Positions 51,760 through 57,317 of a DNA stretch of 64,000 nucleotides are shown here, piece by piece (within the stretch, counting starts at the first letter, position 1; each line of letters starts with the position of its first letter). The notes beneath the pieces were generated by a model that saw only the letters and a list, made by a program, of their open reading frames with translations, was not told the DNA's origin and did not search any database. The stretch is from Emticicia sp. 21SJ11W-3. GTDB taxonomy: Bacteria > Bacteroidota > Bacteroidia > Cytophagales > Spirosomataceae. The stretch covers positions 3,720,001-3,784,000 of the forward strand of contig NZ_CP092074.1 in NCBI RefSeq assembly GCF_024138715.1, in the 5' to 3' direction. The position numbers and the translations under genes were made by a program.

Positions 51760-52605
51760 ATGAAACCCATTCAGTTTGAATTGTTTGAACCTGCAGATAC
51801 AAAAGAAAAGCGCAGCAAACTGGGCCATGCGCACATTGCTTATCAGCAGGCATCGTCAATACTTACCGAAGGCAAAGGCGCTTTAAAGAGCTTCGACTAC
51901 ACCCTTAACCCCTACTCGGGCTGCTCTTTTGCCTGCAGCTACTGCTATGCCGCATTCTTTACGCGGTCGGAGGAAGAACAAAATAACTGGGGATATTGGG
52001 TTAGAGTAAAAGAAAATGCGTTGCAGTTACTTATGAAACACAGAAAAGCGCCCATGATAAACAAATCAATTTACATGAGCAGCGCAACAGACCCCTACCA
52101 ACCGCTTGAAAGAGAACTGGAGCTTACCCGAAGCCTGGTGCAGGAGCTTGTAAAGTATCATAAAGTGCGGTTGGTGGTGCAAACCCGCAGCCCCCTGGTA
52201 ACGCGCGATATAGACCTTTTTAAGCAATTTGAGTCAATTCAGGTGAATATGAGCATTACAACCGACAGCGAAGAGGTCCGCAAGACCTTTGAGCCGGTGT
52301 GTTCGTCAATCAATGCTCGTTTAAAAGCTATCAAAGAGGTGCAAGAGGCAGGCATCAATACCTGTATTTCGTTATCGCCCCTGCTTCCAGTTGAAAACGC
52401 AACAACATTTGCGCAAAGGTTACTTGAAACCGGCGCAAAGAAATACTATATCCAGGGGTTTCATTTCAGCAAAACCAAATTTGTATCAGGCACAAGAGAA
52501 GAAGCGCTTAAACTGATACAGAAAACTGATTGGAACGACCGCAAATTCAACGAGACACTAGAAACGTTAAGAGCGCACCTGCCCAATCTTAAACAACTGG
52601 TATAA
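51760..52605 (+). CDS. Radical SAM protein, SplB-like family
   Basis: A 281-residue radical SAM protein. The cluster motif is in NPYSGCSFACSYCYAAFF (CxxxCxxC). Downstream are SSATDPYQPLERELELTRS and SPLVTRDIDLF with SITTDSEEVRKTFEPVCSS, all typical of the Rv2578c/SplB-like group. True spore photoproduct lyase has a conserved Cys for hydrogen return in another place, so this is not assigned as SplB. Function in this family is largely unknown. Monocistronic. The upstream region contains two copies of ATTTTGTGTA (near 51688 and 51717). Confidence 0.9.
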   Translation: MKPIQFELFEPADTKEKRSKLGHAHIAYQQASSILTEGKGALKSFDYTLNPYSGCSFACSYCYAAFFTRSEEEQNNWGYWVRVKENALQLLMKHRKAPMINKSIYMSSATDPYQPLERELELTRSLVQELVKYHKVRLVVQTRSPLVTRDIDLFKQFESIQVNMSITTDSEEVRKTFEPVCSSINARLKAIKEVQEAGINTCISLSPLLPVENATTFAQRLLETGAKKYYIQGFHFSKTKFVSGTREEALKLIQKTDWNDRKFNETLETLRAHLPNLKQLV

Positions 52606-52876
52606 ACAGTAGAACCCATACTTTTTTCATAACAGCAAACGAAGGAGGTTTATTTTTTATACGATACGCAATCAGGCAAAAATAATGCATTACAACAAAT
52701 AAAAGTAAAAACACCCGTAGTGCATTTTGAATCGGAGAATCTAAGCTGCCAATATATATTCTAAAGGGTTTGATTGAACCATTCAGTTCAACATCTTCAA
52801 GTCATTTGATGCAGCAATGAATCTGCACTTGTTTGGGATTGCTTTTAGATTGATTCTGCGCTTTTTGAAAGATTGG

Positions 52877-53038
52877 GTATCTCGTAGGGATATTATATCG
52901 GTAGAAAATATGGCTGATACACGTCTAAAGTCCCATCGGGACGATATATTAAGTACTCAACAATAAATATATTATCCCTGACGGGATACGCAGCAATAAG
53001 TCAAATCTACGTCTACTGATATACCATCCCTACGGGAT
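52877..53038. repeat. Interspersed palindromic element, copy B
   Basis: In the 693-base gene-free region 52606-53298. It follows the same order as copy A: GTATCTCGTAGGGAT, ATATCGGTAGAA, the hairpin GTCCCATCGGGAC (52930-52942), ATATATT, ATCCCTGACGGGATAC (about 52974), AAATCT, TCTACTGATAT, ATCCCTACGGGAT. Homology with copy A extends across about 160 bases. The remainder of the gap is AT-rich and shows no gene. Confidence 0.75.
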
Positions 53039-53232
53039 TCCGTTTGAATGGAAGGTTAACTGATTAAATTCAACAATCTTTGATTAGTGCTAATTTGAGG
53101 TCTATTAGTGTATTCATCTTAAATTCACCACGAATTAAAAACTTAAGATATTATTTTTTTAATCGGCCAAAGGTCTGCTTTTATTCAGTATTACCGCTTT
53201 ACTTTTCAGTTTTTAATAATCCTTATTATTTC

Positions 53233-53240
53233 TACTTTTG
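53233..53240 (+). promoter_or_regulatory. -7 element (TACTTTTG) for the UroD-like/adenylation operon
   Basis: TACTTTTG matches TAnnTTTG about 59 bases before the ATG at 53299. Confidence 0.5.
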
Positions 53241-53298: not shown

Positions 53299-54228
53299 AT
53301 GCAAAGTCTTGTTTCGTTTTGGAAGCATCATCCGGTTGCCGACCAGAAGGCCGAAACTCTGGCGCAAAGCACGCTTGAGTTTCAACAAAAATTTAATTCC
53401 GATTTTATAAAAATTACCCCGGCCGGTAGCTGGCAGGCTGTATGCCACGGTGTAGAAGACATCTGGAATGGCGACTACCTGGGTAGACGCATTATTACCA
53501 AAACCATAATTAACAACCCTCAGGACTGGCTCCGGCTTCCTGATTTCACCCAAACAAAACCCCAGTTGCTGCAAGAAATAGCAGGCGCCTGCCGCCAGGT
53601 TTACAATAAAACCACCAATGGCACACCAGTTGTTTCTACGGTTTTCTGTCCAGTTTCGCAGGCAGTTCAAATGGCCGGGCTGCCTGTCTTTCTGCAGCAT
53701 GTAGCAACAAACCCGGATGAGGTTCAGGCAGGTCTGGAAAGAATTACCCAAAACACCCTCTATGTAATTAATGAACTGATTGCGGCGGGTTCTAAAGGAA
53801 TTTATTTTGTTACCCAGCACATGCGCAATGGCGCTTTGCCGCCAGAAACCTATAAACTATTCGGTGAGCCGTACGATACCCAATGCCTCAATGCCTGTAA
53901 AGACCTTCAGTTCAGTTTTTTTCATATTCATGGCGAAGATGTTTACTTTTCACTGAGCAATATACCTGCCAATTGTTACATTCATTACGAATACAGTACC
54001 CAGACCCACATTGATGAAACATGGAAGCAACCATTAGCAAACCGCTTACTATGTGGGCTGCCTGCATCAGAAATGGCACTATGCCAAACAGAAAGCGAAA
54101 TGCTGCAACTCATTAATGAAAAAAGTACTGGCGATATAGTTACCTGCGGCTGCGTATTGCCGCTTGATTTCGCCGATGAAAGCATCCGGCAATGGATGGC
54201 CGTTGCCAAAACAATAAAAAGTTTATGA
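53299..54228 (+). CDS. Uroporphyrinogen decarboxylase (UroD/MtaA) family protein
   Basis: A 309-residue UroD-superfamily TIM-barrel protein. It has the N-terminal WKHHPVADQKAETLA, DFIKITPAGSWQAVCHGVEDIW, FCPVSQAVQMAG, FVTQHMRNG, FHIHGEDVYF and a C-terminal GDIVTCGCVLPLDF. True UroD (about 350 residues) has a different substrate-binding Arg/Asp N terminus, which I do not see, so this is one of the family members acting on other substrates, such as methyl transfer from corrinoid or activation of thiols. It overlaps the next gene by 4 bases (ATGA), so the pair is translationally coupled with an adenylation-carrier-thioesterase protein. Confidence 0.82.
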   Translation: MQSLVSFWKHHPVADQKAETLAQSTLEFQQKFNSDFIKITPAGSWQAVCHGVEDIWNGDYLGRRIITKTIINNPQDWLRLPDFTQTKPQLLQEIAGACRQVYNKTTNGTPVVSTVFCPVSQAVQMAGLPVFLQHVATNPDEVQAGLERITQNTLYVINELIAAGSKGIYFVTQHMRNGALPPETYKLFGEPYDTQCLNACKDLQFSFFHIHGEDVYFSLSNIPANCYIHYEYSTQTHIDETWKQPLANRLLCGLPASEMALCQTESEMLQLINEKSTGDIVTCGCVLPLDFADESIRQWMAVAKTIKSL

Positions 54229-56759
54229 GCTTAGATTTCCAGGGCCCGGAAGATGTACAGTTCAGGAAATTTGAACAAACCTGGCTAGACTTACCAGTTT
54301 TCAAAATCTTTGAAGAAGTTGTAAGAAGGAATCCTGATAAAATTGCTCTTCAATCAGATGCTGCTCAGTTAAGCTATCAGGCAACCTTCCAGCTGGCTTG
54401 TACGCTTGCAGGGGTTATCAACGCCCAAAGCACCCAAAAAGAGCCCATTGGCATCGCCTTGCCTAATGATATGTTTTTTCCGGTGGCCATGCTGGCCGCA
54501 CTGGCATCCGGCTGTGGGTATGTACCACTGGATATAGACCTGCCTGAAGCCCGCAACCGTCTGATTATAGAACAATCAGGGGTAAAATCTGTCATTACTT
54601 TAGCTGAACTGGCAGATTCTTATCGGGCATTCCATCCAATCTGTATTGATGCGCTTACCTCAAATACCGAAGAAACGTTTGTATGCTCGGCCCATGCAGA
54701 AGACCTGGCATATATTATTTACACTTCCGGTTCTACAGGTGTACCCAAAGGGGTGTATCAGAACCAGCGAAATCTGCTGCATGATGTAATGCAATATACC
54801 AACTCTGTGCATCTGAACGAAAACGACCGCCTGACGCTGCTGTATTCGCCAAGTGTAAACGGAGCCATCAGAGACATTTACGGCGCTTTACTGAACGGTG
54901 CCACCCTGATTATCAAAAACCTGAAAAAAGGTGGCTTGTATGATTTGAGCCAATTCATCCGTCAGGAAGGCATCACGGTTTACCACTCCATCCCCAATAT
55001 TTTCAGAACTTTTCTAAAACTGAATCCGGCAAAAACAGACCTCTCAAAGGTGAGGCTGATTTATCTGGCAGGAGACCGTATTTATAATGCCGATGTAGCA
55101 TTGTACAAATCATTTTTTGGTGCTGACTGCCTGCTTTACGTAGGCATTGGCGCTACCGAAATTGCTACCATTTACAGGCAGTGGTTTATTAATCATAAGA
55201 CTGTTATCAATCAGGAACTTATACCACTTGGGTATTCTGTTGAGGACAGAAAAATGCTGTTGGTTGGCGAAGACAATACGCCCGTACCAGATGGAGAACC
55301 CGGAGAAATAACCGTTAGCAGCCCTTACATTTCGTTGGGATACTGGAAAAATGCTGATCAAACCAGAACATCATTCAGCACAGACCCCACCCATCCGGAA
55401 ATAAGAACTTACAGAACCGGAGACCTGGGAAGAATTAATCAGGACGGATTGCTTGAATTTATTGGTCGCAAGGATAATCAGGTTAAAATAAACGGATACC
55501 GAGTTGAATTGAGCGAAATTGAAGGGGCATTAATGAAACACCCCGCCATTGACCGATGCGGAGTGATAGTACACACACAAAGCCAGCATAATGCGCTGTT
55601 TGCTTTTTTTATCAGCAAAACTGTTCTCGCCGAACCGATACTGAAAGAATGGCTGGCAGAGCAATTACCCGCATATATGATTCCTCAAAGGTGTATTCAG
55701 GTTAATGATATACCCACTTTGCATAATTTTAAAAACGACAGCAAAGCGCTGAAAGCATTGGCCGAAAAATATGCAACACAACCTAGTGAAACGGATGCCT
55801 CCAGTACCGATGAAGATTTTCTATACCAAACGCTTAAACAAACCTGGTGTAAGTTTCTGGACAAAAAATCGTTCGATAACGATGTTTCGTGGAAGAATGC
55901 AGGTGGTGATTCGGTAAATGCCGTTAACTTTCTGGTGCAACTTGAATCTGATTTGTGTACCACCCTACCCACCGACTGGATTCACGGGGCTATGACACCC
56001 CGCGAGATTTATGGTATTTTAAAGGCGATGGATATTCAGATAAAAGACAAATCTGGTTATAGTATTTATGTTTTTCCGGCGGTTATCGGAATAACGGAAA
56101 GCACAAGGGTATTTCTCAATAATTTGTCTGAACACGTAAGCATCAATATCATAAGCTATCCTGATTTTTCATTGTTAGCTGCCAGAAACCGCAACTGGGA
56201 CTACGCCATTAAGAAAATATTTGAGCAGATGCCTGACTACAACCAACCTAACGTGGGGTATCTGGGTATTTGTACGGGGGGCTTGATAATGAATAAAATC
56301 ATTACCGCCCGTCATCTGCGAAACTATCTTTACCTGGGAATCGTGGAAGGCTTGCCAAAAATGAATACGGTGTTCCCTAAAGACAGTTTCTTTAAAAGAA
56401 CAAAAGATTATCTGGAAAGGGGCGATTTTATTCAGTATGGTTTAAGAATGGTGTATGTTCGCTCAGCACTGGCAAGAAAACTGGTTTATGGGCTGGAAGA
56501 GCGCCTGAATATCAAAATCTTTATTCCATCGCTTTTATGGTACCATTATTACCAACTGGAGGCAAGCCCGATAGATGCTCCTTTATGGTATTATGGCTGT
56601 GATGGCTCTTACTACGACCCGAGTGGCTCGCCCTGGAAACCCTATTTTAGCGAAATACATACCATCAGCCTGAATGGCGGGCATTTAGATATGCTGGATG
56701 AACATAATGCCCCCGTTGTTATCAAACATCTGGTAGAAACCGTTTTAAAACCAACCTAA
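54225..56759 (+). CDS. NRPS-like A-T-TE monomodular enzyme
   Basis: An 844-residue protein. The AMP-binding (A) domain spans about 20-500: IIYTSGSTGVPKG (core A3), the substrate-pocket region with Asn212 where amino-acid-activating domains keep Asp, IYLAGDRIYN, YRTGDLGRIN (A7), and GRKDNQVKINGYRVELSEIEG (A8). The carrier domain has GGDSVNAV, with Ser563 ready for phosphopantetheine. A thioesterase-like alpha/beta-hydrolase follows (about 625-844): the nucleophile elbow is GICTGG with Cys683 instead of Ser, and the likely catalytic His820 lies in LNGGHLDML. No condensation domain. The ATG overlaps the UroD-like stop. The product is unknown. Confidence 0.88.
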   Translation: MSLDFQGPEDVQFRKFEQTWLDLPVFKIFEEVVRRNPDKIALQSDAAQLSYQATFQLACTLAGVINAQSTQKEPIGIALPNDMFFPVAMLAALASGCGYVPLDIDLPEARNRLIIEQSGVKSVITLAELADSYRAFHPICIDALTSNTEETFVCSAHAEDLAYIIYTSGSTGVPKGVYQNQRNLLHDVMQYTNSVHLNENDRLTLLYSPSVNGAIRDIYGALLNGATLIIKNLKKGGLYDLSQFIRQEGITVYHSIPNIFRTFLKLNPAKTDLSKVRLIYLAGDRIYNADVALYKSFFGADCLLYVGIGATEIATIYRQWFINHKTVINQELIPLGYSVEDRKMLLVGEDNTPVPDGEPGEITVSSPYISLGYWKNADQTRTSFSTDPTHPEIRTYRTGDLGRINQDGLLEFIGRKDNQVKINGYRVELSEIEGALMKHPAIDRCGVIVHTQSQHNALFAFFISKTVLAEPILKEWLAEQLPAYMIPQRCIQVNDIPTLHNFKNDSKALKALAEKYATQPSETDASSTDEDFLYQTLKQTWCKFLDKKSFDNDVSWKNAGGDSVNAVNFLVQLESDLCTTLPTDWIHGAMTPREIYGILKAMDIQIKDKSGYSIYVFPAVIGITESTRVFLNNLSEHVSINIISYPDFSLLAARNRNWDYAIKKIFEQMPDYNQPNVGYLGICTGGLIMNKIITARHLRNYLYLGIVEGLPKMNTVFPKDSFFKRTKDYLERGDFIQYGLRMVYVRSALARKLVYGLEERLNIKIFIPSLLWYHYYQLEASPIDAPLWYYGCDGSYYDPSGSPWKPYFSEIHTISLNGGHLDMLDEHNAPVVIKHLVETVLKPT

Positions 56760-56801: not shown

Positions 56802-57317
56802 CTACAAGGTTTCGTAACGTTCTTTTATAATATTCAGATGCCAGCGCTGGTGCCCAACCATAATAAACCCAATGCCCAGCACAGAGTATGTACCTCTGAA
56901 TGATAACCCAGAACGGAGCAGCATCTCGTCGGTAAATGATTTGAAAAGCATAATAGAAGTTTCTCTCACCAACTTAAACTCGGTTAGCAGGTCATCAAAG
57001 CTGCGCTCATTGGCTATCGTATTTCTTGCATATTCTTCTTCGTCAAAAGACGGCATCCGGGCGGTTTCTCCACGTGCAAAGCATAAGGCACGGCAGGCAA
57101 AAATCCTTTCAGTGTCTATCATGTGTTGCAGAATATCTCTGATAGTCCATTTGCCGGGCGCATACACCTTGTCGCCAATGCTTTTCCATAAGTCTATGGG
57201 AAGATTATCGAATTCATCCCGGCTTGTCTCCAGGGCTTCGTTCAATTCCACATCATCGGCCAGATGAATGTATCTGTCAAAAAACTCGGGCATTGGGTAA
57301 ATTTCAGCTTTTGTCAT
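56802..57317 (-). CDS. DinB-like family protein
   Basis: A 171-residue DinB_2-type four-helix protein. The candidate metal-ligand His residues are in RDILQHMIDTERIFACR and VGHQRWHLNIIKERY, and SIGDKVYAPGKWTIRDIL is the typical motif before the first His. DinB-fold proteins include bacillithiol transferases; this member is only assigned by fold. Single gene converging with the adenylation operon and separated by 42 bases from it. The 690 bases beyond its start contain repeat region C. Confidence 0.88.
   Translation of the reverse strand: MTKAEIYPMPEFFDRYIHLADDVELNEALETSRDEFDNLPIDLWKSIGDKVYAPGKWTIRDILQHMIDTERIFACRALCFARGETARMPSFDEEEYARNTIANERSFDDLLTEFKLVRETSIMLFKSFTDEMLLRSGLSFRGTYSVLGIGFIMVGHQRWHLNIIKERYETL

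Follow-up and report, generated by a model that had tools for sequence, protein, structure and literature searches.

Fungal quinone and furanone synthetases activate aromatic α-keto acids, which have no α-amino group, and condense them with their thioesterase (TE), as described in the accessible text of PMC9047271 and PMC10316625. In adenylation (A) domains for α-amino acids, an Asp at position 235 of GrsA is the rule (PMC11355689 and PMC11253843, both available in part), and its loss is described for hydroxy-acid and aryl-acid A domains in the available portion of the latter. Here we analyze a pair of overlapping genes in Emticicia sp. 21SJ11W-3 (5.18 Mb genome, single contig), located in a window of 64,000 nucleotides (NZ_CP092074.1, positions 3,720,001 to 3,784,000, forward strand). 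The first gene encodes a UroD-family protein (P0001), the second a synthetase with A, carrier (T) and TE domains (P0002). On balance, we favor a reading in which this pair is a horizontally moving two-gene cassette that makes a small non-amino-acid metabolite. No description of such a pair was found in a literature search that mostly did not extend to subscription papers.

The organization of the locus agrees with a first-pass annotation made from the sequence alone. The stop codon of P0001 overlaps the start codon of P0002 within an ATGA, as that annotation reported, and the two genes are probably translationally coupled as a result. Pfam recognizes AMP-binding (1e-57), AMP-binding_C (4e-8) and PP-binding (1e-5) domains in P0002 but no condensation domain. 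With a TE assigned by profile homology, P0002 joins A, carrier and TE domains in a single polypeptide, in the order of nonribosomal peptide synthetase (NRPS)-like A-T-TE enzymes.

The intact pair, in the same order and on the same strand, is present in at least 12 distinct Bacteroidota loci including the window, with different flanking genes, and every close UroD relative that we found is followed on the same strand by an A-T-TE gene. In the family survey (222 genomes), UroD is present in at least 9 genomes and A-T-TE, above 700 bits, in at least 11, which are the same 9 plus one in which UroD is decayed (G008) and one in which the contig ends upstream (G020). In the order survey (390 genomes), at least three genomes have UroD and the same three have A-T-TE above 700 bits, while in the phylum survey (395 genomes, E 1e-20) UroD is found, among the candidates scored, only in the window's own genome. 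These tallies are lower bounds because the best two (order) or four (family) A-T-TE candidates, and the best six (order), five (phylum) or 10 (family) UroD candidates, were scored per genome; the contig scan for UroD used two peptide patterns and may miss divergent members. Seven of 12 genomes with a UroD match have only weak ones (E 2.3e-11 to 9e-4, L010-L016), which belong to other UroD branches, were not counted and have no A-T-TE in the stretch around them. Loci representing one and the same contig, as judged from its length and the coordinates, were merged ahead of the count (L006/L021/L026/L058/L076; L007/L022/L028/L059/L074; L009/L017/L024/L046/L049; L008/L023/L060/L079; L030/L061/L064/L075; L047/L050/L054; L062/L065/L080; L063/L066/L081). 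The search for such pairs in other genomes, which the first-pass annotation had proposed, thus reveals a non-random association.

G008 is the exception. No UroD gene is called there, and two successive pieces of a UroD C terminus lie in different frames just before the A-T-TE gene, with the Cys replaced. One piece matches the UroD of Emticicia sp. BO119 with 29.3 bits and the other with 26.2 (joint E 5.4e-7); the values for the UroD of the window are 24.6 and 21.2 bits, and the best of 50 simple shuffles reaches 25.8 bits in a single piece. Since this remnant precedes its A-T-TE, G008 looks like a decayed pair.

The two genes also share their history. FastTree trees of the 12 pairs, from which G008 was left out, have 9/9 splits in common (one with a support of 0.29 in the UroD tree and one valueless there through rooting), and their distances correlate at 0.979, a value matched by 0/2000 label permutations. 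Such congruence is expected for any two co-inherited genes, and co-inheritance across Bacteroidota implies a common task for the two enzymes. Moreover, two divergent pair types (UroD identity of 36-39 %) occur within one genus. Together with the patchy distribution, this suggests that both genes were either transferred jointly or lost and gained long ago as one unit. In E. oligotrophica the pair is plasmid-borne (pEMTOL02, 100,312 bases), and that of G899 lies directly downstream of an IstB gene (PF01695, 4.8e-70) and a transposase frame. Neither the G008 remnant nor these signs of mobility were visible to the first-pass annotation.

As for the A domain, its pocket was mapped by alignment to LgrA and by GrsA motifs. 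The list of positions is that in the accessible part of PMC11253843. At GrsA positions 235-517, P0002 reads N-G-R-H-Y-A-G-T-I-K. The SVNGAIRD motif begins at residue 210, which makes its Asn residue 212, and the alignment called for by the first-pass annotation does place Asn212 over the LgrA Asp (FSFDGSALDIF) equivalent to Asp235 of GrsA, as claimed. Residue counts here and below refer to 13 orthologues, G008 included and G020 excluded; L027 ends inside the TE, its His being unread. Position 235 is Asn in eight orthologues, Gly in two, Ile in two, Ser in one and Asp in none (0/13), whereas the rest of the pocket reads GRHYAGT(I/L)K in 13/13, position 331 being Ile or Leu and all others invariant. 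Neither a conserved pocket Asp nor a random association of the genes, the two outcomes named beforehand as contrary to the annotation, is therefore seen. Free drift at 235 in an otherwise fixed pocket is expected where nothing binds at this position, which argues for the orthologues sharing one substrate without a normal α-amino group. The first-pass suggestion of such an acid is strengthened by this pattern, yet it stays unproven in view of an exception, McyG, considered below.

The end of the substrate facing the invariant Arg216 (position 239), a residue that the first-pass annotation did not mention, is probably polar or anionic. Arg239 is absent from three ordinary Asp235 A domains of the order (L051-L053) but is common to rhizobial A-T-TE proteins and a Nostoc loading module, which likewise lack Asp235. 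Together with the present orthologues, these proteins form one A-domain clade (support 1.0, with a weak internal order), which may be specific for acids whose distal group is polar or anionic. Two candidates were discarded. His254 was dropped as a carboxylate-pocket signature, since the same three ordinary domains have it, and an aryl-acid domain of the DhbE type was rejected since the A5 region reads LYVGIGATE and the DhbE-type motif QQVxFMAEGL is absent. Asn235 is the sole feature that P0002 has in common with such domains, as far as the available part of PMC11253843 describes them.

By analogy with ACV synthetase (ACVS), the A domain might instead activate the distal carboxyl of an α-amino dicarboxylate. 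Arg216 would then hold the α-carboxylate and Asp235 would be unneeded, the amino group lying deep in the pocket. We regard this as unlikely, although it is the strongest of the alternatives. The published aminoadipate codes EPRNIVEFVK and DPRHFVMRAK share Arg at position 239, and DPRHFVMRAK, like P0002, combines it with His at 278, but our literature search did not confirm these codes, and His at 278 occurs in L051-L053 too, which makes it background rather than signature. ACVS does adenylate the δ-carboxyl of aminoadipate, but the α-amino group appears crucial in that enzyme (accessible text of PMC7147772).

Downstream of the A domain, the carrier could be primed by the product of the one 4'-phosphopantetheinyl-transferase-family match in the host genome. 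The identity of the C-terminal domain is less direct. Pfam recognizes no thioesterase in this part of P0002, nor in seven isolated TE domains, one of which matches the α/β-hydrolase family Ndr (2.4e-4), and an hmmsearch of the PDB with a TE profile gave a best E of 0.21 (septins), with weak rows for TesA and surfactin TE. The assignment comes from hhalign, which aligns the domain with that of a rhizobial relative (probability 96.2, E 2e-9), and PF00975 recognizes both rhizobial proteins (1.3e-13 and 6.5e-16); the alignment with the TE of G871 is weak (probability 32.7, E 4.7e-4, 84 columns). GICTGG begins at residue 681, so that Cys683 occupies the nucleophile position, and the Cys elbow first noted in this single sequence proves to be conserved (12/13).

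A Cys nucleophile raises the possibility, again by analogy, that the TE closes a strained β-lactone or β-lactam ring, like ObiF and SulM, both of which use Cys (accessible text of PMC11298585). P0002 shares this Cys by position only. In the same source, Cys combined with an acid after strand β7 is tied to strained-ring closure, and there is an acid after β7 in 12/12 aligned orthologues too (judged by eye in a loose alignment). However, the catalytic Asp of ObiF and SulM follows β7 and not β6, whereas 13/13 orthologues have an acid after β6, at 708, like AB3403, which has Cys with the acid in its usual position. There is also no condensation domain adjacent to the pair, and we consider strained-ring closure distinctly improbable.

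P0001 belongs to the UroD superfamily by its match to URO-D (PF01208, 9.3e-15) and by the predicted fold of its AlphaFold model (pLDDT 93.6). The top structural match of the model by Z is MtaA (4ay7, Z 30.3, 298 residues, 2.7 Å, 13 % identity), HemE structures being next (up to 28.5), whereas ranking by Foldseek E-value puts HemE 4zr8 first and MtaA second. The fold alone is thus not decisive. A profile search of the PDB at E 0.001 returned MtaA as the sole match for the P0001 family, and phmmer with a single UroD sequence returned 0 matches at E 0.1. When P0001 is aligned to 4ay7, the His-x-Cys of MtaA and the Cys of its GCG motif, which we take to be its zinc ligands, correspond to His209-x-His211 and Cys285, a putative metal site. 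Conservation was assessed in the paired UroDs and in an alignment (A2) of 20 UroD relatives from Bacteroidota, Chloroflexi and Rokubacteria. A HemE paralogue working as HemE was rejected, since the only TIGR01464 match in the genome is a different gene (G000:C1:5154368-5155357) and no HemE hit is among the NCBIfam matches of P0001.

Because the best sequence matches of P0001 are MtaA/CmuA-type methyltransferases, and MtaA leads by Z, the protein could be a corrinoid-dependent S-methyltransferase of the MtaA/MtbA type that only supplies a methylated thiol. We think this is improbable to a similar degree as ring closure. The zinc-site rule for S-methyltransferases is His-Cys-Cys, in agreement with the ligands that we assume for MtaA, whereas P0001 reads His-His-Cys in the profile alignment, a site not described for the UroD superfamily in the accessible text of this source (PMC10418091). 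A search of the host genome with PF02607 gave two proteins, one MetH-like (by eye) and one MerR-type regulator with a B12 domain, neither of which adjoins the cassette; no stand-alone corrinoid protein was found with this model, and other corrinoid-protein models were not searched. Thiol activation, one of the activities that the first-pass annotation had in mind, is therefore not established, the triad being unlike that of known S-methyltransferases. The evidence is compatible with a putative zinc enzyme that would use a small acid as substrate, for alkyl transfer or some related reaction, and we rate alkyl transfer as the likeliest single chemistry.

The weakest alternative, that the two genes are neighbors by chance, finds some support in the decayed UroD of G008 alone and can be dismissed: at least 12 loci have the same pair in the same order and on the same strand, their flanking genes differ, and the two gene trees are congruent.

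Returning to the two-gene cassette, its genes, domain order, pairing, co-inheritance, pocket residues, Cys elbow and metal-site alignment were computed, and from these we infer metal binding, the kind of substrate, the chemistry and the order of the steps. The A domain would adenylate a small carboxylic acid without an ordinary α-amino group, the polar or anionic far end of which would be held by Arg216 in a pocket lined by His254 and Tyr280. The acid would be loaded onto the pantetheine of Ser563, and a Cys683-His820 thioesterase would accept the acyl group and release a free acid, an ester, a lactone or a self-condensation product. The UroD-fold protein, via its His209/His211/Cys285 site, might alkylate or dealkylate a heteroatom in either the substrate or the product, or bring about some other change in that molecule. 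A more specific version, which we put forward only tentatively, is that a UroD-fold metalloenzyme with a His-His-Cys site serves one carrier-protein synthetase exclusively, perhaps with the pantetheine-bound acyl group as its target, in a mobile unit that makes a new class of small acid-derived metabolites.

Several observations weigh against the pathway outlined above. An amino acid substrate is still compatible with loss of the Asp by itself, since McyG binds L-Phe with Val at position 235 (accessible part of PMC11253843). The AlphaFold model of the whole A-T-TE (from seven sequences) has a pLDDT of 61 and a poorly folded A domain, so that its Foldseek list was not used and the pocket residues were assigned by sequence alignment. 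The A-T-TE frame of G008 is intact despite its decayed UroD; the pathway may therefore work without the UroD step, or this locus, of which the TE elbow reads STCSG, may be dying. L031 has Leu for the nucleophile Cys, as the sole one of 13 orthologues, and this only locus without the Cys has a third overlapping gene (L031:13346-15226, 626 residues, asparagine-synthetase/lasso-cyclase-like), so that release may have changed there. Finally, the pair has neither a regulator nor a transporter gene next to it in the window.

The appeal of the system is its very small size: two genes, one carrier and one release step. As a minimal, testable and mobile pathway, the pair offers an unusually clean route to the role of an uncharacterized UroD branch and to the product of a Cys thioesterase from a single activated acid, while the variation at position 235, against a pocket that is otherwise fixed, amounts to a natural experiment on the role of this residue in adenylation domains.

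Table 1. Features of the UroD/A-T-TE locus (window positions)
Feature	Position	Strand	Basis
Candidate promoter TACTTTTG	53233..53240	+	Match to -7 pattern TAnnTTTG; weak, without control
UroD-family gene (P0001)	53299..54228	+	Open reading frame call; 309 residues, short N terminus starting near FWKHHP motif; PF01208 9.3e-15
His209-Ile-His211	53923..53931	+	Aligned with MtaA His-x-Cys; invariant in 12/12 paired UroDs and 20/20 relatives (A2)
Cys285	54151..54153	+	Aligned with MtaA GCG-motif Cys; 12/12 paired UroDs, at least 90 % of 20 relatives (A2)
ATGA stop/start overlap	54225..54228	+	Sequence; P0002 ATG 54225-54227, P0001 TGA 54226-54228
A-T-TE single-module synthetase (P0002)	54225..56759	+	Open reading frame call; 844 residues from ATG 54225; Pfam
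Adenylation domain (residues 29-503)	54309..55733	+	PF00501, PF13193
Asn212 (GrsA position 235)	54858..54860	+	Alignment
Arg216 (GrsA position 239)	54870..54872	+	Invariant in 13/13 orthologues
Carrier domain	55827..56012	+	PF00550
Pantetheine Ser563	55911-55913	+	Ser in 13/13 orthologues
Thioesterase-like α/β-hydrolase domain	56052..56756	+	Homology; no direct Pfam thioesterase match
Cys683, nucleophile position of elbow (GICTG)	56271..56273	+	Cys in 12/13 orthologues
Glu708, acid directly after strand β6	56346..56348	+	Asp 10/13, Glu 3/13
His820, presumed catalytic His	56682..56684	+	12/12 orthologues whose contig reaches it

The genes around the pair (Table 1) are unrelated to it: on one side is a radical SAM gene with its end at 52605, on the other a DinB gene of opposite orientation (56802-57317). 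This matches the first-pass remark that no condensation domain or transporter is adjacent, Pfam showing no condensation domain. The candidate promoter was found with TAnnTTTG, which we take to be the Bacteroidota -7 pattern. Upstream of the pair, an inverted repeat with 30-nucleotide arms (52876-52905 and 53012-53041, 83 % complementary) looks like a repetitive extragenic element.

Compared with known systems, P0001 shares its fold and the zinc-ligand positions with the MtaA/MtbA methylcobalamin:CoM methyltransferases but differs from them in its His-His-Cys triad, its low identity and the lack of a corrinoid partner detectable with PF02607. HemE has the same fold, but the host's own HemE is a separate gene. 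Chloroflexi, Rokubacteria and Proteobacteria have a WRHFP-type UroD family that resembles P0001 in its metal-site residues: in the 20 relatives of A2, the equivalents of His209 and His211 are invariant and that of Cys285 nearly so. No A-T-TE match was found beside these UroDs (0/13 loci, L032-L044, several on short contigs). Among four plasmid-borne members examined, those of Gemmobacter and Microvirga adjoin tripartite tricarboxylate transporter genes, as would be the case in small-acid uptake operons, whereas no such genes are annotated beside those of Polaromonas and Thermomicrobium. The enzymes ObiF and SulM have the Cys nucleophile in common with P0002 and make small products (accessible text of PMC11298585), but in P0002 orthologues the acid after β6 is conserved and P0002 is a single module.

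The rhizobial plasmid A-T-TE proteins (Mesorhizobium, Bradyrhizobium) resemble P0002 in their domain order, in carrying Arg at 239, in lacking Asp at 235 and in the clade of their A domain. However, their nucleophile is Ser, no UroD was seen, and their neighbors are an FkbM methyltransferase and/or an aldo-keto reductase. On pMLb of Mesorhizobium japonicum (L018:10844-14625), the place of UroD is taken by an FkbM methyltransferase gene, which overlaps that of a distant A-T-TE with Arg239. A plasmid of Mesorhizobium sp. AR07 (L071:6001-11651) has an unannotated A-T-TE-like stretch beside nadE and asnB. An unannotated locus on a plasmid of Nostoc sp. UHCC 0926 (L087:10266-17416) has an A-carrier loading module (Arg239, Ala235) that precedes an NRPS, the A domain of which presumably reads as a Thr code, with sugar-transfer-like genes nearby (by eye). 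A different A-T-TE is found in the same family, where it is overlapped by a GNAT-like gene (L085:5475-8784 and L086:3971-7283, with a Pfam match in L086); it has a Ser elbow (GFSFG) and the pocket SAASSGATIK, without Asp235, and candidate frames of ~850-875 residues also occur in G869, G870, G872 and G873.

The fungal quinone and furanone synthetases, and ralfuranone synthetase, which we take to be an A-T-TE NRPS-like enzyme, resemble P0002 in their domain order without a condensation domain. Here, in contrast, the pocket reads NGRHYAGTIK, unlike VAEFSGGACK, presumably the code of aromatic keto-acid A domains, the nucleophile is Cys and there is a UroD partner gene. The pair is thus a variant of the A-T-TE kind and not a new kind of machine.

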